Source of the DNA: Deltaproteobacteria bacterium RIFOXYA12_FULL_61_11
Lineage (GTDB): Bacteria; Bdellovibrionota_F; JAHFAK01; YA12-FULL-61-11
Direction of reading: 5' to 3'
NCBI GenBank assembly: GCA_001799195.1
Contig: MGSU01000019.1
Coordinates: 1-20,788, forward strand
DNA: 20,788 nucleotides
Shown: piece after piece, positions 3,151-20,698 of the stretch
Numbering within the stretch: position 1 is the first letter of the stretch
Layout of the letters: every line of letters begins with the position of its first letter
Translations under genes and position numbers: made by a program
The notes under the pieces: generated by a model
Seen by the model: the letters and a program-made list of their open reading frames with translations, nothing else
Databases searched by the model: none
What the model was told of the DNA's origin: nothing

Positions 3151-3897
3151 TTATCGACCGCCGAGGAGTTTGCTCGCGAGCAGGTCGATCATGGAACGCA
3201 AGGCGATGTGCGGGGCTTGGAGAACCGTCGTGAAGTGCCGCTTCGCCTCGGTCGTGGTGGTCGGTCCGATACTGGCCGCGACGAGCTGGTTGAGGGGTTT
3301 CCCCGCCGCCAGGGTGATCAGATTCCGCACGGTGGACGGACTGGTGAAGGTCACGGCCGCAAGGCTCGGCAACAGGGCGTGCAAGCGCTCGGTGTCGCTC
3401 ATGGCCGGAATGACCGTACGGTAACAGAGCAGGGCCGAGGCCTCGGCCCCGTGATCCCGCAAGAACTTTGCAAGTTTCCCACTGCCCAGATCCCCCTTGG
3501 GGAGGAGGAAGGTCCGACCGACGAGGGGTTCGCCGGCCAGGGTCTCGATGAGCGAGGCCTCGGTCGAGCCCGGGGCCAGACGGTCGACCCGGACGCCCAG
3601 GTCCCTGCACAGGGCCGCGGTCTCGCTGCCGATACAGGTGACCTGCGTGCGTGGGTCGAGGCGCTGTTTGCGGTGGTGGGCCAACTGGAAAAAATACCTG
3701 ACGCAGTTGCGGCTGGGAAAGACGATCTCGTCGACCCTGTCGAGTCCGAAGAGCAAGGTCCTGCCGCGTTCGTCCGGTTCCACGGTCTCGATGGCTATGG
3801 TCGGGAAGGGAATCCCCTCGCAACCGGCAGTCGCGAGCAGGGCGAGTTGCCGTTCGGGATCGGGTTGGGTTACCAGCACCTTGGGCATCGCGCTCAT
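3151..3897 (-). CDS. hemD: Uroporphyrinogen-III synthase
   Basis: HemD cyclises hydroxymethylbilane to uroporphyrinogen III, inverting ring D, at the entry to heme, siroheme and cobalamin synthesis; it is a cytosolic two-domain enzyme. The 248-residue product has typical length and family signatures: FPSRNCVRYFF (residues 60-70), the linker motif CIGSETA (88-94), GAEASALLCYRTV (150-162), TFTSPSTVRNL (183-193) and IGPTTTTEA (210-218). HemD is poorly conserved in sequence, but the TFTSPSTV and YRT elements are characteristic. The start at 3897 overlaps the stop of the upstream ArsA-like gene as ATGA, so a longer in-frame extension to 4062 is rejected. Other tetrapyrrole genes (hemC, hemB) are absent nearby; it closes the hldE-arsA-arsA operon. 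Confidence 0.88.
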   Translation of the reverse strand: MSAMPKVLVTQPDPERQLALLATAGCEGIPFPTIAIETVEPDERGRTLLFGLDRVDEIVFPSRNCVRYFFQLAHHRKQRLDPRTQVTCIGSETAALCRDLGVRVDRLAPGSTEASLIETLAGEPLVGRTFLLPKGDLGSGKLAKFLRDHGAEASALLCYRTVIPAMSDTERLHALLPSLAAVTFTSPSTVRNLITLAAGKPLNQLVAASIGPTTTTEAKRHFTTVLQAPHIALRSMIDLLASKLLGGR

Positions 3898-5015
3898 AGT
3901 CGACTCGTCGGGATCTGCCTGGAGAGGAGTTCGAGGGCTTGAATATCCGAAACGTCCCGAGGAAGCAAGGAAAAGGTATGGAGGAATTCCCCGGGGTCGA
4001 GTTGTGCGGCCAGCTCTTCCACGACCGTGCGCTCGTGCCGGAGCAGGTTCTCCCCAAGACAATAGACGTGTGCAAGGGCTTGTTCCGCCGGGTTGGAGCC
4101 AGGCTGCCGCTCGGCAAGCTCCTCGGCCAAGGAGGCCGGGGCGCCGTCTCTCGGGAAGGTCTTGTTGACCAGTACGCCGCAGCAGTGCAAGTGACGCTCA
4201 CGTAGCTCACGCCGGAAGTAGAGGGCATCGCGCACATTACTGCGGGTCGGCGTGGTCACGATGACGAATCCCGTGGCCTCCGAATGGAGGAGATCCATGA
4301 TCGCGCCGATGTTGTGCCGCAGGGCATGTTGATCGAAGAGACCGTCGATGGCCTCACCGAACTCGACCAAGCGGCGGAGGGGGGTCAGGCCGATGACCGT
4401 ATCGAAGGCAGCCATCACGGTCCTGAGGCCGAGGCGGAAGGGATTGAAGGTCCTGGCGTTCGGAGGACTGCCGAACAGCCCGCTGAAGAAGCGGCGGATG
4501 CGTTCGCTGCTGTCGAAGAATTCGATCAATCGGGTTGGTGAGGAGAGGAAGCTGAGCGCATCCTTGGTCGGAGGGGTATCGACGATCACCTTGTGATAGT
4601 TCTTGGTGTTGACGATGGTGATGAGCTCGCGCAAGGCCAAGAATTCTTGTGCGCCGACAAGGGCTTGGAGGGCGTCGCCGAAGATCTCGTGCGAGAAGAT
4701 CGGGGAGAGCCGCGGGAGTTCGGCGAGATACCGTTTGATGACACTGTCGGGATTGACCATGAAGAAGCGCAACGGCAGGGCACCGACCGGGCTTTCGTCG
4801 GCGTTGGCCGAGTCGTTCATGCCGAGGGTGTCGAGCAAGCGGCGAGCAGGGTCGATGGTGATACAGGCGCTCAGCCCCGCGGTCTTTGCCTGATGGACGG
4901 CAAGGGTGGCGGCGAGGCTGGTTTTGCCCACGCCCCCGCTGCCGCAGCAGACCACGATGCGTTTCTCGAAAAGGACCTCGGCGAGCGAGGGCCTTCGTTC
5001 AGTCGAACCTGGCAT
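3894..5015 (-). CDS. ArsA/Get3-family ATPase, second copy (signature Lys replaced by Ser)
   Basis: This is a SIMIBI-class P-loop ATPase of the ArsA/Get3 family (anion-pump or tail-anchored-protein-targeting ATPases); the substrate here is unknown. The 373-residue product has a deviant Walker A GSGGVGKTS at residues 25-33, in which the signature lysine at 26, present in canonical GKGGVGKT, is serine. It is followed by TIDPARRL (53-60), an ArsA-like segment, and a switch II-like DTPPTKDALSFL (146-157). No CxxC zinc motif typical of Get3 dimers was seen. The ATG at 5015 has GAGGAGA about 10 bases upstream and overlaps the preceding gene by 17 nt; a TTG at 5036 is possible but lacks a ribosome site. 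Actinobacterial heterodimeric ArsA-like pairs are the nearest analogy; a heterodimer with the upstream copy is inference. Confidence 0.85.
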   Translation of the reverse strand: MPGSTERRPSLAEVLFEKRIVVCCGSGGVGKTSLAATLAVHQAKTAGLSACITIDPARRLLDTLGMNDSANADESPVGALPLRFFMVNPDSVIKRYLAELPRLSPIFSHEIFGDALQALVGAQEFLALRELITIVNTKNYHKVIVDTPPTKDALSFLSSPTRLIEFFDSSERIRRFFSGLFGSPPNARTFNPFRLGLRTVMAAFDTVIGLTPLRRLVEFGEAIDGLFDQHALRHNIGAIMDLLHSEATGFVIVTTPTRSNVRDALYFRRELRERHLHCCGVLVNKTFPRDGAPASLAEELAERQPGSNPAEQALAHVYCLGENLLRHERTVVEELAAQLDPGEFLHTFSLLPRDVSDIQALELLSRQIPTSRL

Positions 5016-5997
5016 GATCCGAAATTCTCCTCGCAAGTGCGTCGATGATCTGTTCCAGACCTTGGCCGGGGGTCGGCACCATCAGGGGTAGCCCGAGCAC
5101 CGGTACTCCGGTGGGCGCGGACAGACGTTCCAGTTGCCGCATGGCCGAGCGGTAGCGGTCCTCGAGGAGCCGCGCCCGGCCCAGGACTAGGCCCTGCTGG
5201 TCGGGGTCAGGGGTCAGGGCTCGGACCAGGTCCTCGAGGGTTCGGCCGTCCTCCTCCCGGGTCCGGAGCGACCACTCGACCGTCTCGAGAACTTTATTCG
5301 CGAGTACCCCGCCGAGCTTCACCACGGTGCGCTTCCTCAATTCCTCCTGTAATTGATTGGCTTCATTCACCGCCAAGGCTTCGGCCAGGGTCACGACCAG
5401 CGCTTTGCAGCGCTCCGGAGAGCCGAGATCGGCGAGCATGCGACGGCAATTGGAAGCGATCGGTCCGATGCGCAGGGCACTCTCCATCAGGGAAGGTATG
5501 GTCAGGTAGAAGGCGATCTGGCCCGAGGGCGGAGCGTCCCAGACGACCAGGTCGTACGCGTTGAACTGGAAGGCCTCGCTCCAGACCTTGCCGATGATGA
5601 AGATCTCGCGCACACCGGGTATGGCGTTGAAGAGGGCCCGGCTGAGCCGCCGCCGGAACACTCCCTCGAAGATCAGGTTCGGCACCTTGAGGATCTCGGT
5701 GAACATCTCCCGCATCGCGCTCTCGGGGTCGATCTTGACGAGGCTCACGCCTGCGCTCACGGCCAGCGGTTCGTAATAGATGGTGTCGAGTTGGTAATAG
5801 CCCAAGAGGGAGCTGTGGGTGGTCGGTTCGAAGTCGTCCTGGATCAACAGCACCTTCTTGCCCGCTCGCTCGGCTGCAACGGCAATGGCCAGGGCCACGG
5901 TGGTCTTGCCTACACCGCCCTTGCCGGTGACAACCAACAGCCGACCGCGCAGGTCGAGGTCCGAGGAAGCGGGGAGTTGCGGCACCGGTTCGCTCAC
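4999..5997 (-). CDS. ArsA/Get3-family ATPase, first copy (canonical P-loop)
   Basis: This ArsA-like ATPase of 332 residues carries the complete deviant Walker A GKGGVGKTT at residues 25-33, with both the signature lysine (K26) and the P-loop lysine (K31). A switch I-like QDDFEPTTHSSLLG (53-66) and the switch II-like DAPPSGQIAFYL (154-165) follow. It is shorter than its neighbour, and the two proteins share little beyond the fold. The P-loops start at exactly the same residue number, which suggests an ancient duplication. The start is GTG at 5997, overlapping the hldE stop as GTGA, with GAGG four bases upstream, so translation is probably coupled. Arsenite export is not supported: no arsB, arsD or arsR is nearby and no arsenite-binding cysteine cluster was seen. 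Confidence 0.87.
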   Translation of the reverse strand: MSEPVPQLPASSDLDLRGRLLVVTGKGGVGKTTVALAIAVAAERAGKKVLLIQDDFEPTTHSSLLGYYQLDTIYYEPLAVSAGVSLVKIDPESAMREMFTEILKVPNLIFEGVFRRRLSRALFNAIPGVREIFIIGKVWSEAFQFNAYDLVVWDAPPSGQIAFYLTIPSLMESALRIGPIASNCRRMLADLGSPERCKALVVTLAEALAVNEANQLQEELRKRTVVKLGGVLANKVLETVEWSLRTREEDGRTLEDLVRALTPDPDQQGLVLGRARLLEDRYRSAMRQLERLSAPTGVPVLGLPLMVPTPGQGLEQIIDALARRISDHARFD

Positions 5998-11543: not shown

Positions 11544-12440
11544 TCAGTGGGTGTGCCGGAGGGGGAGGTTCTTCTCGAGCTCAGTGGTCGCCAGGGCAAG
11601 CATGGCCGCTGGGTCGACCACGGAAGGGTCGAAGAGTACCGACCCGAGGGTGCAACCGAGATGGAGCCGCCGACCCATGAAGGTGTACGTACGCTCCTGA
11701 AGGCGTTGGCGAATCTTCTCCCCCACGACGGCGGCACCTTCGGGTTTTGTACTGAGGAGGAGCAGGGCATAGCGATCGGGGGCCAGCGCACACGCGACGT
11801 CACTCTTGCGGATACAGGAGGTGAGCAGGCCGGCAAGGTCGCGTAACACCCTGGACCTCGCGGCGAGACCGAAACTCTGAACCAGGACCTCGAGGTCCTG
11901 GACCTGGACCAGGACGAGGGCGAAGCACTCGCCATGGCGCCGGGCCTTGGATAATTCCGTCGACAGGCGTTGCTGGAAATAACGGCCATTGTACAAGGTG
12001 GTTTCGGCGTCGAGCATGGCCAAACGCTCGAGTTCGCCACGCAGCAGGTGGGTTTCGGAATGAAGGCGTTGATTGACCCTGAGTACTTGCAGGAGGGACA
12101 GGGCCGTACCTTCTTCCCCCGACCCTACCCTCAGAAAACCTGTGTTGAACCGTTGGAACAGAGAAGTCAGTTCTTCGAGGGGCGGCTGGTTCTCGGCGAA
12201 GAGTACCAGGGGAAGATGAGCGTATTCGTCGACTTTTCGGAGTTCCACCAGGCTTCGGAAATCGTCCAACCTCGCCAGTTCCAAGCCCAAGAAGAGCGCT
12301 TCGACCGGTTGAGTGGCCAGTTCGAGCAAGAGGAGTTTGTAGTTACCGCTCGACGAGACCGTGCAGCCATCAGGAGCCAGAGCACGCTCGAAGAAGGCGA
12401 ACCATGTCTTGCTGCTGTCGACAACGAGGATCGAACCCAT
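11544..12440 (-). CDS. Degenerate receiver + degenerate GGDEF protein
   Basis: This 298-residue signalling-type protein has two domains, both apparently inactive. The receiver-like N-terminus (about 1-125) begins SILVVDSS, but the strand that should end in the phosphoacceptor aspartate reads ALFLGLEL, and the position expected to hold the conserved lysine reads GFLRVG. The C-terminal GGDEF-like domain (about 135-290) keeps the opening TLYNGRYF (148-154) and the terminal strand/helix pattern, but the GGDEF signature is replaced by APDRY (220-224). The usual DxD metal region is VQVQD (178-182). Diguanylate cyclase activity is therefore unlikely; a scaffold or effector role is inferred. The ATG at 12440 is used; a GTG immediately before it is equally possible. 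DUF1611 follows after 9 bases. Confidence 0.82.
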   Translation of the reverse strand: MGSILVVDSSKTWFAFFERALAPDGCTVSSSGNYKLLLLELATQPVEALFLGLELARLDDFRSLVELRKVDEYAHLPLVLFAENQPPLEELTSLFQRFNTGFLRVGSGEEGTALSLLQVLRVNQRLHSETHLLRGELERLAMLDAETTLYNGRYFQQRLSTELSKARRHGECFALVLVQVQDLEVLVQSFGLAARSRVLRDLAGLLTSCIRKSDVACALAPDRYALLLLSTKPEGAAVVGEKIRQRLQERTYTFMGRRLHLGCTLGSVLFDPSVVDPAAMLALATTELEKNLPLRHTH

Positions 12441-12482
12441 CACCCACCCGGACTACGCATGCTATCAGCAGAATGCCCTGCA

Positions 12483-15379: not shown

Positions 15380-15397
15380 TGAGGTCGTGCAGCTTGC

Positions 15398-15426
15398 TGG
15401 ACAAGGGCGATGGCTTCGCCTATCAT
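15398..15426 (+). promoter_or_regulatory. Sigma-70 promoter of the cNMP-motAB operon
   Basis: TGGACA (15398-15403) and TATCAT (15421-15426) each match consensus at five of six bases and are separated by an ideal 17 nt. The predicted start near 15433 leaves a 38-base leader to the ATG at 15471. It lies within the upstream extension of the reading frame, which argues that the extension is not translated. Confidence 0.7.
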
Positions 15427-15470
15427 GGCCCCTCGTTCTCAGCATGAAGCAACAGCGGGTTGGCGAGAGC

Positions 15471-15944
15471 ATGACCATCGAGGATACGTTCCGACCGAAG
15501 TTGCGCGCGGCCTCCTTGTTCGAGGATCTTACCGACGAGGAAATAGACCGGGTCTGTGAGGTTTCGAGGATAGAACATTTCCGGGAAGGGGATCTGGTCA
15601 TCAGGGAAGGGGATGCCCTGGACAAGAACATTTACGTCTTGCTCGAAGGGCAGGTCCACGCCTTCATCGAGGGGAAGACCAAGCGCATCGTGGTGGCGAT
15701 CATCGAAGACACCGGGGTGTTCGGGGAGTTGATGAGCATTTTCCCGAGCGGCAAGCGCGTCGCCTCGATCATGGCCAACGGGGAGAGTTCCATCCTGATC
15801 ATCGACGACCACCGTTTCAAACAGCTCGTACGGCAGGAAACGCGTATCGGCATGATCATCTACCGAAACCTGTGCCGTATTATTGCGGACAAGTTGATCA
15901 AAACCGACATCCTCCTCCGGCACACCATCGAGTGGGGCTGGTAA
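15471..15944 (+). CDS. Cyclic nucleotide-binding domain protein
   Basis: This stand-alone cNMP-binding (CAP_ED/Crp fold) protein of about 157 residues has no DNA-binding domain. The fold opens with LFEDLTDEEIDRVCEV, continues with FREGDLVIREGDALDKNIYVLLEGQV (beta-roll) and has the phosphate-binding cassette FGELMSIFPSGKRVAS at 84-99, with the expected glutamate (E86) and arginine (R96). Nucleotide binding is therefore plausible, though the cassette is not classical. A C-terminal helix (RIGMIIYRNLCRIIADKLIKTDILL) may contact a partner. The ATG at 15471 is chosen because the promoter excludes the longer frame; an ATG at 15444, eleven bases after the predicted transcription start, is an alternative. 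It is the first gene of the operon, 28 bases before motA, which suggests control of the motor by cAMP, cGMP or a related ligand. Confidence 0.85.
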   Translation: MTIEDTFRPKLRAASLFEDLTDEEIDRVCEVSRIEHFREGDLVIREGDALDKNIYVLLEGQVHAFIEGKTKRIVVAIIEDTGVFGELMSIFPSGKRVASIMANGESSILIIDDHRFKQLVRQETRIGMIIYRNLCRIIADKLIKTDILLRHTIEWGW

Positions 15945-15972
15945 CCACCTTTCGGGAGCGCGAGGTACACAC

Positions 15973-16791
15973 ATGGACGATTTCAGCGGCGGGATCACCT
16001 ACTACGCCAAGAAGCGTAGCATGGGCGACATCGCCTCGATCGTCGGTATTCTGGGCGGCTTCTCCCTGCTGTTCTATGCCATTTACGATGGGGGCGGGTT
16101 CGAGATCTTCCTTGATGCCAACTCGGCCATGATCACCATCGGCGGTACCCTGGCCGCGACCTTCATCAGTTTTCCGATGGGCGAGGTCTTCAAAATCTTC
16201 CTCTTAGCCATCAAAGTCTTCTATAAACAAGTGCGCAACCCGGAAGAGCTGGCCAAGGACATCGTCCAGCTCGCCTACCTGTCGCGCAAGGGGGGGAACA
16301 TCACCCTCGGCCGCGAGGAGAACCAGATCGGCGATAGTTTTCTGCGATACTGCATCGCTTTGGTGGTCGATGGGGTCGATCCGGTCATCATGAAGGAATT
16401 GATGGAGATCGAAATAGACTCTATCCGCACCAGGCACATGAAGGGCCAGAAGATCTTCCGCTCCATGGCGGCCTTTGCTCCGGCCTTCGGCCTGGTCGGC
16501 ACGTTGATCGGCTTGATCGCCATGCTGAAAAATCTCCAGGACGCGACCAAGATCGGACCGGCCATGGCCGTGGCCATGATCACCACCTTCTATGGCGCGA
16601 TCATGGCCAACCTGATCCTCTTGCCGATCGCCGAGAAGTTGGAGGATAAAATGGAGGAAGAGGTCTTCCTGATGAAACTCGTTTCCGAGGGAGTGGTTTC
16701 GCTGCGGAGGAACATCAATCCCAAGATCATCGAGAAGAAACTCAATGCCTTCCTGCGAACCTCCAAGCGTTTCAGCTTGAAAGGCAAATAA
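15973..16791 (+). CDS. motA: Flagellar motor stator protein MotA
   Basis: MotA is the ion-channel and force-generating half of the stator, which pushes on the FliG ring. The 272-residue product has four hydrophobic segments (about 21-40, 51-70, 168-190, 201-221) and a large cytoplasmic loop between the second and third, where rotor-contact charges reside. Signatures include ITIGGTLAATFISFP, FRSMAAFAPAFGLVGTLIGLI and MLKNLQDATKIGPAMAVAMITTFYG, all typical of MotA/PomA. The ATG at 15973 has GAGGT six bases upstream; it gives about 17 residues before the usual MGDIASIVG start, and an internal ATG there is possible. motB follows after 4 bases. The coupling ion (proton or sodium) cannot be decided with confidence. 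Confidence 0.95.
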   Translation: MDDFSGGITYYAKKRSMGDIASIVGILGGFSLLFYAIYDGGGFEIFLDANSAMITIGGTLAATFISFPMGEVFKIFLLAIKVFYKQVRNPEELAKDIVQLAYLSRKGGNITLGREENQIGDSFLRYCIALVVDGVDPVIMKELMEIEIDSIRTRHMKGQKIFRSMAAFAPAFGLVGTLIGLIAMLKNLQDATKIGPAMAVAMITTFYGAIMANLILLPIAEKLEDKMEEEVFLMKLVSEGVVSLRRNINPKIIEKKLNAFLRTSKRFSLKGK

Positions 16792-16795
16792 CGAG

Positions 16796-17551
16796 ATGAC
16801 CGACGTCGCGGACATCATCAAGAAATTCAAAGAGAAGCAAGCCGGGGCCGGTTCCAAGGCCGCACCCGCGGCCAAAGACGTCCCGACCATAATCCGCGAA
16901 GCCAGCCGCGCCCCTCGAAAGGAAAATCTCACCTGGATCTTCATGTACGGCGACCTGATGTCGCTGTTGTTGATCTTCTTCATCCTGTTGTTCTCGATGA
17001 GCACCATCAACAAGGCCATGTTCGACGAGGCCATGATCTCGGTGAAGGACGCCATCAGCGGCAAGCGGGAACATCCGCAGTCCAAGGTCAAGGTAGCCCC
17101 GCTGGAACAGGTCAAAGCGGATATCGAAGCCATCGTAGAGAAGGAAAAGCTGACCGAGGCCGTGGAAATCACCTCCTCGTTCAAAGGGGTGTTGATCTCG
17201 GTCGGTGACAGGGTTCTCTTCGCCCAAGGGAGTGCCGAGTTGAAACGTCCGGCGAAGTTAGTCCTGAACCGTCTGGGAAAGGCGTTTTCCGCGTTGCCTT
17301 ACAAGATCGAGGTTTCCGGACATACCGATAATCTACCGATCAAGTCCCGGCTGTATCCGACAAACTGGGAGCTCTCTACCGCTCGGGCCTGCAGCGTGGT
17401 GCGCTACCTGGTCGATTATTGCAAGCTCGATCCGGGCAAGCTCGTGGCCCAGGGATTCGCCGAGTTCTCGCCGCTCTCGCCCAACACGAGCAGAACGGCG
17501 AGGGCTGCGAATAGACGCATTGAGATCCTCATTTCACAGAGGAAGGAATGA
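16796..17551 (+). CDS. motB: Flagellar motor stator protein MotB
   Basis: MotB is the peptidoglycan-anchored stator partner of MotA. The 251-residue product has a charged 40-residue cytoplasmic N-terminus and one transmembrane helix (about 48-68, FMYGDLMSLLLIFFILLFS), in which D53 is the expected ion-carrying aspartate. A plug/linker region follows. The OmpA-like domain (about 125-248) has the peptidoglycan-binding motif SGHTDNLPI (174-182), NWELSTARA and RAANRRIEI (237-245). The YGDLMSLLLIFF form of the helix resembles the MotB/PomB of many deltaproteobacteria. The start lies 4 bases after motA, and its stop overlaps the next gene as ATGA, placing motAB inside a larger coupled operon. Confidence 0.95.
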   Translation: MTDVADIIKKFKEKQAGAGSKAAPAAKDVPTIIREASRAPRKENLTWIFMYGDLMSLLLIFFILLFSMSTINKAMFDEAMISVKDAISGKREHPQSKVKVAPLEQVKADIEAIVEKEKLTEAVEITSSFKGVLISVGDRVLFAQGSAELKRPAKLVLNRLGKAFSALPYKIEVSGHTDNLPIKSRLYPTNWELSTARACSVVRYLVDYCKLDPGKLVAQGFAEFSPLSPNTSRTARAANRRIEILISQRKE

Positions 17552-18345
17552 ACTCGTACCTGCTGAGCCGCAGGGAACTGCTGTTCCGCACCATCGTGGA
17601 ACACCTCAACTGCGGGGTGATCCTCCTCGACACCGAGAGGGTCTATTTCCTCAACCGCGCGGCGATCTCGCTGTTCGACCTCGAAGGGGTGGATCGCGCG
17701 ACTCTGCGTCCGGGCGATTTTCTCGATCCGAGGATCCTCGCCGAAGAACGGCCTCTCGAGCGCATCCTCGAACAGGGAGAGGGCACGGTCCACCTCCGCT
17801 ATCAGCTCGGTACTCTGGAAGTGGTCTTAACCTTTCTCAGATTTCCCAATACTGTCAAGAAGCTGTTGCTCCTCGTGGATTTTGGGGCGCATCTGGCGAG
17901 CGAGTTCCGGCCAACCCTTCTCGACGGGGAACACCTCGAGGTGGTGACCTTCTTCGGAACCGTGCTCGACAACCTGCGCGAACTGTCCTGGGCCAAGAAC
18001 ATTCCCGTACGCATGGCCGCGGACCAGAAGGTCGTCGGCATCTACGGCAACCGCCCTGAACTCGAATACATCTTCACCAACATGGCCGGCAAACTCATCA
18101 AGTTCAGCCATCGGGGTGAGGTCGTGGTCTCGGTCACCGAGCGCGAGAGCGGGGAGGCTCATCAGATCAGCCTCGAGAACGCGGCCTGTACCATCGCAGA
18201 GGACGATTACACCCGGCTCACGAGCCGGTTCGACCAAGAGGCGGACAAGGCGAAGAAACTGATCGAGAAACACGGTGGACGCTTCTGGGTCGACTTCGAA
18301 CCCGGACTCTCGTTCCACTTCACCTTGCCCAAGGACATGAAATGA
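17548..18345 (+). CDS. PAS-like plus degenerate histidine-kinase-like protein
   Basis: This 265-residue cytoplasmic protein has no signal or membrane segment. Residues 10-110 resemble a PAS fold (RTIVEHLNCGVILLDTERVYFLNRAAISLF). Residues 125-262 resemble the second half of a sensor kinase: DNLRELSWAKNIPVRM, then GNRPELEYIFTNMAGKLIKFS where an N box would read NLL-NA, and a C-terminal KKLIEKHGGRFWVDFEPGLSFHFTLP typical of the G2/end region. There is no H-box histidine motif, no DxGxG G1 box, and the N-box asparagine pattern is lost, so autokinase activity is unlikely. It may act as an adaptor or pseudokinase. The start ATG at 17548 overlaps the motB stop and has a GGAAGGA site; the gene overlaps the HDOD gene by 4 nt. 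Confidence 0.75.
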   Translation: MNSYLLSRRELLFRTIVEHLNCGVILLDTERVYFLNRAAISLFDLEGVDRATLRPGDFLDPRILAEERPLERILEQGEGTVHLRYQLGTLEVVLTFLRFPNTVKKLLLLVDFGAHLASEFRPTLLDGEHLEVVTFFGTVLDNLRELSWAKNIPVRMAADQKVVGIYGNRPELEYIFTNMAGKLIKFSHRGEVVVSVTERESGEAHQISLENAACTIAEDDYTRLTSRFDQEADKAKKLIEKHGGRFWVDFEPGLSFHFTLPKDMK

Positions 18346-19199
18346 ATCCGGGCGAGAACTCCACACTCGGCAAGCACCTGGTCGAGGGCACGGAACTCAA
18401 GGTCATGCCCACGGTGGCCCAACGGGTCATCCAGATGGTCAACGGTGATACGGCCACGGCCGAACAACTCGAACGCGTCCTGATCGGTGATCCGGGACTC
18501 ACCGCGACGATCCTGCGCATTGCCAATTCGCCCTACTACGGGTTGCCCAAGGAAATCCGGACCATTTCGATGGCCATCGTGGTGTTGGGTTTCAAAACGC
18601 TGCGCCGCATCGTCCTGGCGGCCGCGACTCGCAATATCTACACGAACCCCGGGCCGGAGGAACAACGCCTCTGGGAGCATTCCCTCGGAGTAGCCATCGC
18701 TTGCCGCGAGTGTTGCCGGAAGCGCAAGCTCATCACGCCCGATGAAGCCTTCATTGCCGGTCTTTTCCATGATATCGGCAAGGTCATCATCAATAACCTC
18801 GAGCCACGCAAGTACCGGCTCATCCTGACCAAGATCGCCAAGACGGGGCGCCCCTTCGAGGAGCTGGCAAAAAAGCTGGTCGGCCTTTCGCAGCAGGAAC
18901 TGGGGAGTATGTTGATCCGCAACTGGCAGATCGATGACGATATCGCCCTTGCGCTGAGCCAGGCCGCAACCCCGCCGGTCGTTCTCACCGAGCGCTGGCA
19001 ACTGCTCCTCGCCCTGCTCCACGTCGGGGAGTACGCGTGTCAGTTCCTGGGTATCGGCTATGAGCAGCCCGATGAGCAGGTGGAGGTAGGCCGCTACCCT
19101 GCCATGGCTCCTCTCGGTCTCAGCGAGCAAGAACTGAACTCCCTCATCGAAGAGGTGGACAAGACGTTCGCCATAGAAAAAGCCTTCTTCGCGTATTGA
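18342..19199 (+). CDS. HDOD domain signalling protein
   Basis: This 285-residue protein is built mainly of one HDOD domain (about 15-215). Signatures are VMPTVAQRVIQMV, the HDOD core IGDPGLTATILRIANSPYYG (48-67), ISMAIVVLGFKTLRRIVL and WEHSLGVAIA. Unlike many HDOD proteins, FHDIGK (142-147) keeps the HD metal-ligand pair, so residual phosphohydrolase chemistry cannot be excluded. Most HDOD proteins, however, are non-catalytic output or regulatory modules that act in motility, chemotaxis or biofilm control. The last about 70 residues are a variable tail. Its ATG overlaps the preceding stop, and AAGGA lies just upstream. It probably ends the motAB operon. No terminator was seen after it. Confidence 0.88.
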   Translation: MNPGENSTLGKHLVEGTELKVMPTVAQRVIQMVNGDTATAEQLERVLIGDPGLTATILRIANSPYYGLPKEIRTISMAIVVLGFKTLRRIVLAAATRNIYTNPGPEEQRLWEHSLGVAIACRECCRKRKLITPDEAFIAGLFHDIGKVIINNLEPRKYRLILTKIAKTGRPFEELAKKLVGLSQQELGSMLIRNWQIDDDIALALSQAATPPVVLTERWQLLLALLHVGEYACQFLGIGYEQPDEQVEVGRYPAMAPLGLSEQELNSLIEEVDKTFAIEKAFFAY

Positions 19200-19321
19200 C
19201 CCCGATGCGGGCCGTTGCCTCGTCCTCCTGGCCGTGCTATGCACACTTCGAGAATGATAGAGGATGGCGGTATCCTAGCGGTCCCCATCCCGTGCGATAG
19301 GTTTTTGCCGTGAGGTGCTCG

Positions 19322-19915
19322 ATGCGGTGTTCGCTCGCGTGCGTGGGGCTGATCCTCTGCTGTCTCTCCTGTGGGCCGAAGCAGTATGCGGTCGTCGGCA
19401 ATTTCGAGAGCTTTCATCATTCCCAGGTCGAGGACCTCATTGCCTCTGGGTACAACCGTTGTCAGGAACCCAATCAGGCCGCACGCCCTCATCCCCATGT
19501 CACGCTCAAGTATACCTTTGAATTCGAGGATATCGGTGCAGTCGAACGGATCATAGAGGAAGTGGCGCACCAACAGCCCCCCTTCTCCATCACCTTGACC
19601 GGCTATGACGAGTTCGCGCACTTCGAAGTGTTGTACCTCAAAGTAATGTCGGATCTCCTGTTCGACCTACACATCCATCTACTCGCTCGGCTCAATGCCC
19701 TAGGGGTTTCCAGCCTCGCGTACGATACCGACTATATTCCCCACCTGACCATTGCCCAAGAAACTGAGAATAAAGCCTGTTTTATCGAGTGGTTCAATGA
19801 ATTGCGGGCCAAGGACGAACCGTGGCCGTCCTTGACGGTCAACAGCATCTCCCTCGGCTATTACGACGAGTCCCACTGGGTTGAACTCAAGCGCTATCCC
19901 TTGCGCGAGCACTGA
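19322..19915 (+). CDS. 2H phosphoesterase-like protein with N-terminal signal-like segment
   Basis: This 197-residue protein shows the two HxTx motifs of the 2H phosphoesterase (2'-5' RNA ligase-like) superfamily: HVTL at 59-62 in PHPHVTLKYTF and HLTI at 141-144 in YIPHLTIAQE. The spacing and strand pattern (QYAVVGNF before the first, SLGYYDESHWVELKRYPL after the second) fit a full 2H fold, whose members act on 2',3'-cyclic or linear phosphodiesters; the true substrate is unknown. The first 17 residues are hydrophobic and cysteine-rich, ending LSC followed by GPK, like a signal or lipoprotein leader, although the lipobox is imperfect. The ATG at 19322 has GAGGT five bases upstream. The next gene follows at once. 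Confidence 0.8.
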   Translation: MRCSLACVGLILCCLSCGPKQYAVVGNFESFHHSQVEDLIASGYNRCQEPNQAARPHPHVTLKYTFEFEDIGAVERIIEEVAHQQPPFSITLTGYDEFAHFEVLYLKVMSDLLFDLHIHLLARLNALGVSSLAYDTDYIPHLTIAQETENKACFIEWFNELRAKDEPWPSLTVNSISLGYYDESHWVELKRYPLREH

Positions 19916-20698
19916 GTGTCGCCGGCAGGACGCATGCAGCAGGCGCACACGACCTTCCTGACCTCGCTCCCCCACTACCCAGACGAACGGATCCGTTTGG
20001 CCAAGGTTGTCGAACACCTCCATTCCTGCGAGGACTCTGCGGTGGTCGGCTTCTTCTCCTTGCTCCTCGAACGCGCCCCGGCGCATGCGCTCGAGGCCGA
20101 CCTCTTGATCACCCTCGTCCTGCACCGCGACGTACTCCATACGACCCTCGGCCAGGGGCGTTTCTGGGCGTTCTCAACGCTTGCGCACCGAGAGGGTGAG
20201 CCGTTGACTCGGCTCTACGTGCGCTCCTTCGTTCTCAGCACCCATTATGCCGAGGGGCGAGCCTCTTGCGAACGACGGAGGTACGATCCTCACGAGGTAC
20301 CGCTCGGAGTGCGTACCGAGACCGCTCGTACCACCGGGTGTCAGGACACCCTCGAGCGATTGCTCCTCGATCCTTCTGCGAGGGTAGTTCAAAATGTCCT
20401 GCGCAATGTCCACCTGCGCGAAGAACAAGTGCTGCGCATACTTGGTGCTCCTGGGTGCAACCAGGAAACAGTGCTCGCGGTCCTGGCTGATCGGCGCTGG
20501 AGAAGACGGCGACGCGTGCGTATTTCTTTGGCCGGGAATCCCCATGTCCCTTTGGTACTGGCGGCGGTCCTGTTGCTCACCTGCAACAGGGCAGAGCGGA
20601 GGGATGTGCTCCAGCGAGCGTCCCTGCCGATGACCCTGGTCGACTTGATCACCGAGCTCGACCGTCAATCCCTGGAGCCCGAAGACCGATGTTCCTGA
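19916..20698 (+). CDS. HEAT/LRV-like conserved hypothetical protein
   Basis: This protein of 260 residues has no signal peptide or membrane helix and is rich in Leu and Arg. The C-terminal half has a repeat-like pattern: LERLLLDPSARVVQNVLRN (146-164), HLREEQVLRIL (166-176), VLADRRWRRRRRVRISLAGNP (189-209) and VPLVLAAVLLLT. This matches a family I recall from Geobacter- and myxobacteria-like genomes that resembles leucine-rich-variant or HEAT repeats. No function is established. The GTG at 19916 immediately follows the previous stop; an ATG at 19934 with AGGA close upstream is a credible alternative start. The gene overlaps the start of the following lipid-kinase gene by 10 nt, so the last three genes form a coupled cluster. 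Confidence 0.75.
   Translation: MSPAGRMQQAHTTFLTSLPHYPDERIRLAKVVEHLHSCEDSAVVGFFSLLLERAPAHALEADLLITLVLHRDVLHTTLGQGRFWAFSTLAHREGEPLTRLYVRSFVLSTHYAEGRASCERRRYDPHEVPLGVRTETARTTGCQDTLERLLLDPSARVVQNVLRNVHLREEQVLRILGAPGCNQETVLAVLADRRWRRRRRVRISLAGNPHVPLVLAAVLLLTCNRAERRDVLQRASLPMTLVDLITELDRQSLEPEDRCS

Follow-up and report, generated by a model that had tools for sequence, protein, structure and literature searches.

An operon that encloses motAB

The DNA analysed here (the window) is a stretch of 20,788 nucleotides from contig MGSU01000019.1 of Deltaproteobacteria bacterium RIFOXYA12_FULL_61_11, and our subject is a run of five genes, all on its plus strand, that encloses a pair of flagellar stator genes, motA and motB. 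The first gene encodes a single-domain cyclic-nucleotide-binding (CNB) protein (157 amino acids from the ATG at 15471; 15471–15944; PF00027, 54 bits). It is followed by motA, which encodes a PomA-like stator A subunit of 272 amino acids (15973–16791; PF01618 MotA_ExbB, 101 bits), and by motB, which encodes the stator B subunit (16796–17551; PF13677 MotB_plug and PF00691 OmpA). The last two genes encode a protein with a PAS domain and a degenerate HATPase domain (17548–18345; PF13188 PAS_8, 22.8 bits; PF02518 HATPase_c, 34.1 bits) and an HDOD protein (18342–19199; PF08668, 175 bits). Open reading frames (ORFs) place the CNB gene 28 bases before motA and motA 4 bases before motB, and the two remaining junctions, motB with the PAS/HATPase gene and the PAS/HATPase gene with the HDOD gene, are four-base ATGA overlaps. 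The coding score is positive for all five genes in a codon-usage model trained on the genes of the window, these five included. A preliminary description of this DNA had listed the same genes, strand, spacings, and overlaps, and both the positions and the domain assignments are confirmed. This arrangement supports a single, tightly packed operon, from which the five genes would be cotranscribed.

The preliminary description also had the operon follow a good promoter, which does not stand. The site (TGGACA-17-TATCAT; 15398–15426, plus strand) is a single 10/12 match to a sigma-70 promoter, and shuffled sequence has a mean of 1.4 such sites, that is, the match is at chance level. Candidate starts of the CNB gene are a GTG at 15387, which is upstream of the proposed promoter, and ATGs at 15444 and 15471, which are downstream of it. 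There were zero matches to a sigma-28 promoter, and a sigma-54 promoter was rejected, as matches were fewer than the chance mean and none was near the operon.

Positions 19310–20698 (plus strand) include a gene, 110 bases after the HDOD gene, for a 2H-phosphoesterase (LigT-like) with a lipoprotein-like N-terminus. An ORF of 260 amino acids with no family match directly follows it, and both could be part of the operon transcript.

Stator proteins and stator sets

The stator proteins of the window have PomA and flagellar MotA/MotB as their nearest solved relatives. Residues 19–266 of MotA align with the Vibrio PomA structures 8bri and 8brd (E ∼1e-54), further flagellar MotA structures match, and the protein is closest to flagellar MotA/PomA, not ExbB/TolQ. 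Its partner, MotB, has a plug-region transmembrane helix with Asp53, which is invariant in the MotB alignment, and an OmpA peptidoglycan-binding domain. From these alignments, the window pair is classified as a flagellar, PomAB-like stator. The threonines of the GTLIG and TTFYG motifs, which match those of PomA, are kept in the window MotA. Such threonines go with sodium-driven stators, and the window stator is predicted to be probably sodium-driven.

Relative to PomAB-type stators (TGI4 group, PMC12505986), the alignment with PomA spans the length of the window MotA, and the window MotB has the same combination of transmembrane Asp and OmpA domain. A four-helix torque-generating interface (TGI4) is accordingly a feature we infer for the window MotA. 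The window pair differs from this group in its operon partners and in a divergent MotA that lacks a firm sister group and is N-terminally extended by 18 residues, an extension also apparent in the alignment with its paralogues. A kinship of the window MotA with a motAB–PilZ clade was considered and rejected; support from the Shimodaira–Hasegawa-like approximate likelihood ratio test (SH-aLRT) was 90 in a quick tree; in careful trees it was down to 52/41, and a different sister group then appeared. Across MotA trees the protein forms a long, unstable branch. Because its placement is unstable in the careful trees, we claim no descent from a PilZ-linked stator.

The source genome is a 4.6 Mb draft that is 87% complete and belongs to a very poorly sampled lineage; the closest relative in the comparison set, G001, is related at the level of class and is the sole one. 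Four flagellar-type MotA proteins are encoded in the source genome, each with a MotB following. One pair, on contig C309, has two MotBs, shares a cluster with fliO, fliP, and fliR (read from sequence), and is probably the standard stator. Another, on contig C104, is the counterpart of the sole MotAB pair in G001. Given the company of the C309 pair and the counterpart of the C104 pair, the window pair is an extra stator set and not the core one. The window also encodes FliD and FliS, and fliG and fliO/P/R are elsewhere in the genome.

As a separate observation, a further motAB pair of the source genome shares its contig, C186, with a gene for a small protein (L073:7855–8271, plus strand) that has a stand-alone FliG_C-like domain (PF01706, 37 bits) and, by eye, an N-terminal membrane helix.

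Signaling proteins of the operon

Matches of the CNB protein in PDB are the CNB domains of PKG, PKA, and CRP-type proteins, and a Pfam scan found no helix-turn-helix or other DNA-binding family in it. In its phosphate-binding cassette, the FGE motif and the Arg are kept, with one residue inserted between them and a Val after the Arg. The protein is most likely a receptor for a cyclic nucleotide, and such a ligand is made plausible by the nine class III cyclase-domain matches of the genome.

In alignments of the PAS/HATPase protein to solved kinases, the N-box Asn is replaced by Lys and the DxGxG motif by NAACT. No HisKA/DHp phospho-acceptor domain was found in it with Pfam at E up to 0.5. Its identification as a pseudo histidine kinase, predicted to be without a usable ATP site, is well founded in these alignments. 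A single-sequence structure model had a mean predicted local distance difference test (pLDDT) score of 34 and is worthless. DivL of Caulobacter is a histidine pseudo-kinase (PMC4211667); the window protein shares with DivL-type pseudo-kinases the reuse of a kinase fold without normal kinase output and differs in being short, with a single PAS domain and no recognizable DHp domain.

The HDOD protein matches the solved HDOD structures 3hc1 and 3m1t (E ∼1e-26). By eye, its HD pair is kept and later histidines are missing, and catalysis appears doubtful. The preliminary description called the last two proteins a non-catalytic signaling pair. The term fits the kinase half, in which ATP motifs are lost and a phospho-acceptor is missing; for the HDOD half, catalysis is only doubtful.

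In several bacteria, HDOD proteins have an effect on swimming, and motility is altered in mutants of them; GsmR and SadB are examples, GsmR acting via flagellum synthesis (PMC11004494). This effect, together with a degenerate HATPase domain that comes without a phospho-acceptor domain, would fit a partner switch in which the degenerate HATPase and HDOD proteins associate and either free or retain the CNB protein, forming an anti-sigma-like or scaffold circuit that acts on flagellar gene expression and not on the motor. We consider such a circuit very improbable, as no sigma or anti-sigma gene is adjacent and the CNB protein is without a DNA-binding domain.

Neighbors of motAB in other genomes

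Same-strand neighbors of motAB were picked mechanically by longest open frame and scanned with Pfam; a few are in the wrong frame, and counts of neighbors are therefore lower bounds. FliL follows motB in at least 74 of 145 loci. Before motA, hook-protein (FlgE-type) domains are found in at least about 43 of 134 loci and FlbD in at least 17 of 134. The preliminary description held that stator genes are usually alone or with chemotaxis genes; in this sample their common neighbors are FliL, FlgE-type, and FlbD genes instead.

Individual parts of the operon recur separately beside motAB, in a minority of loci. A PilZ gene is directly after motB in eight genomes of the phylum of G138 (L251–L255 and L257–L259) and in two further genomes, G079 and G235 (L132 and L147), and its product is likely a dedicated regulator of the stator that responds to cyclic di-GMP (c-di-GMP). 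Directly before motA, several loci of the Desulfobacter type and one of Neomarinimicrobiota have an HD-GYP-type (HD_5) gene (L024, L026, L029, L033, L041, and L042), and an HDOD gene is present in G043 (L179, 2776–5220), where the run reads flhF-flhG-fliA-HDOD-motA-motB. In two loci, the gene directly after motB encodes a PAS histidine kinase. In G032, a single-domain CNB gene is located 206 nt upstream of motA.

A CNB–FliG_C–motA–motB order in another phylum stands out as the most interesting lead. Directly upstream of motA, G289 encodes a protein of 404 amino acids (L178:5489–6700, minus strand) with a CNB domain at residues 9–91 and a FliG_C domain at residues 307–392. The FliG_C part is 32% identical over 53 residues to FliG of the source genome of the window; in our alignment, the Arg at the position of Escherichia coli Arg281 is kept and the position of Asp289 is Gln. 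G151, of the same family and a different genus, has a CNB–FliG_C protein split by a contig end (L265/L266), with the C-terminal part just before motA and the N-terminal part, which carries the CNB domain, at the end of a second contig. As in the window, a CNB domain is encoded directly upstream of motA in this locus. Unlike in the window, it is fused to FliG_C and is not an orthologue of the window CNB, and HDOD and pseudo-kinase genes are lacking. Large CNB proteins encoded after motB in G151 and G289 were considered as additional parallels and rejected because they are SulP transporters.

A proposed auxiliary stator with its own signaling proteins

By analogy with known motor regulators, we suggest that the window encodes an auxiliary PomAB-type stator operon with its own signaling proteins, in which the CNB protein would act on the stator much like a PilZ brake. 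We hold this reading tentatively and rate it at somewhat less than an even chance. The CNB protein would have a cyclic nucleotide as its ligand and, in one of its states, would contact MotA on the cytoplasmic side or at its interface with FliG. This contact would allow the auxiliary stator to engage with the motor, slip, or detach from it, in the manner of PilZ proteins and c-di-GMP, and motility would be affected. The PAS pseudo-kinase and HDOD protein, which would be translated in coupling with motB, probably form a non-catalytic pair, for sensing or as a scaffold, that would govern the timing of production or use of this stator set.

In response to c-di-GMP, the PilZ proteins YcgR, MotI, and FlgZ bind to MotA or MotC, and stators are braked or disengaged; the gene for MotL is part of the flagellar cluster that encodes the system under its control (PMC8203827). 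The proposal shares with these brakes and clutches (YcgR, MotI/DgrA, FlgZ, and MotL) a small second-messenger-binding protein that acts on a particular stator or motor, and in several sampled lineages PilZ genes directly follow motB. It differs in that the candidate sensor of the window operon is a CNB domain, encoded upstream of motA. No PilZ domain was found in any of the five proteins of the operon with Pfam at E up to 0.5.

Several observations weigh against this reading. The five-gene order is absent from 51 MotA loci of named genomes and from ∼120 MotAB neighborhoods in 290 genomes spread over bacterial families, and it was found zero times among 134 upstream and 145 downstream neighbors. 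G001 has no such regulators next to its motAB, its only pair being the orthologue of the C104 pair and not of the window pair. A CNB gene is before motA in two of the 134 loci, which is near chance (P 0.03–0.10, assuming CNB in 0.2–0.4% of genes). The window CNB is not an orthologue of the CNB genes in G032 or G289 and is similar to a paralogue encoded by the source genome itself. This genome has 16 CNB and 16 HDOD domain matches, making adjacency of such genes to motAB less surprising. The closest paralogue of the window CNB in the genome is beside TldD/PmbA-like proteases (read from sequence), and another is beside hemB, not motor genes.

The preliminary description had named the lack of a conserved gene order in relatives as counting against a dedicated module. 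On the genomes sampled, a conserved five-gene stator-control module is rejected. The broader idea in that description, that a ligand sensor and regulators control the stator, fares better, in that CNB, PilZ, HD-GYP, and HDOD genes are beside motAB elsewhere.

Because the CNB paralogues adjoin non-motor genes, small CNB proteins in this genome would be general regulators. In the main rival to the auxiliary stator reading, the operon is coexpressed, and its three regulators are likewise general and share the motAB transcript, for example as part of a surface or motility regulon, while acting on transcription or other targets. The unconserved gene order, the many CNB and HDOD proteins that the genome encodes, and the unrelated genes beside the nearest CNB paralogues are all consistent with it. 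It accounts less well for the tight spacing and overlaps on both sides of motAB and for the second-messenger genes that turn up next to motAB in other genomes as well, the CNB–FliG_C fusion among them. We regard general regulators as a possible explanation, well short of an even chance.

The single occurrence of the five-gene order could also reflect chance or a recent rearrangement that moved the CNB gene and the pseudo-kinase/HDOD pair next to motAB in one lineage, with no shared function. The long, unstable branch of MotA with no firm sister group would agree with this, as would the rarity of each of the PilZ, CNB, HDOD, and kinase neighbors. Nevertheless, two stop–start overlaps and a gap of 28 bases are uncommon between neighbors that are not under selection, and regulator genes flank motAB on both sides, so that we consider a fortuitous association quite unlikely.

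Returning to the auxiliary stator reading, the fusion of a CNB domain to a rotor domain in the CNB–FliG_C protein is a stronger argument for it than the count of CNB genes before motA. Since the window CNB is not orthologous to those of G032 and G289, the CNB–stator link would have arisen more than once.

Elsewhere in the window, and on the minus strand, are a gene for a GGDEF-family protein (11544–12443; 74.7 bits) that has APDRY in place of the GGDEF signature and is probably an inactive diguanylate cyclase, and two adjoining genes for ArsA/Get3-like ATPases (3894–5997) with an ∼38-base overlap as first called.

Implications for stator control

Multiple stator sets and control of stators by second messengers are already known, and control by a small molecule is so far known for c-di-GMP via PilZ proteins. 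A literature search for CNB–FliG or CNB–stator proteins found nothing relevant. A more specific possibility is a cyclic-nucleotide-gated stator, in which a CNB domain, alone or fused to FliG_C as in G289 and G151, would bind MotA in a manner dependent on cyclic AMP (cAMP) or cyclic GMP (cGMP) and serve either as a clutch or as a decoy rotor surface. Such a system would be a counterpart to that of c-di-GMP and PilZ and would have arisen more than once; we consider it unlikely. The CNB–FliG_C fusion beside motAB offers a compact, testable protein for this idea that is independent of the window. If true, cAMP or cGMP acting via CNB domains would add a second messenger to the direct control of the motor, and genomes with several stator sets would gain a way to choose among them.

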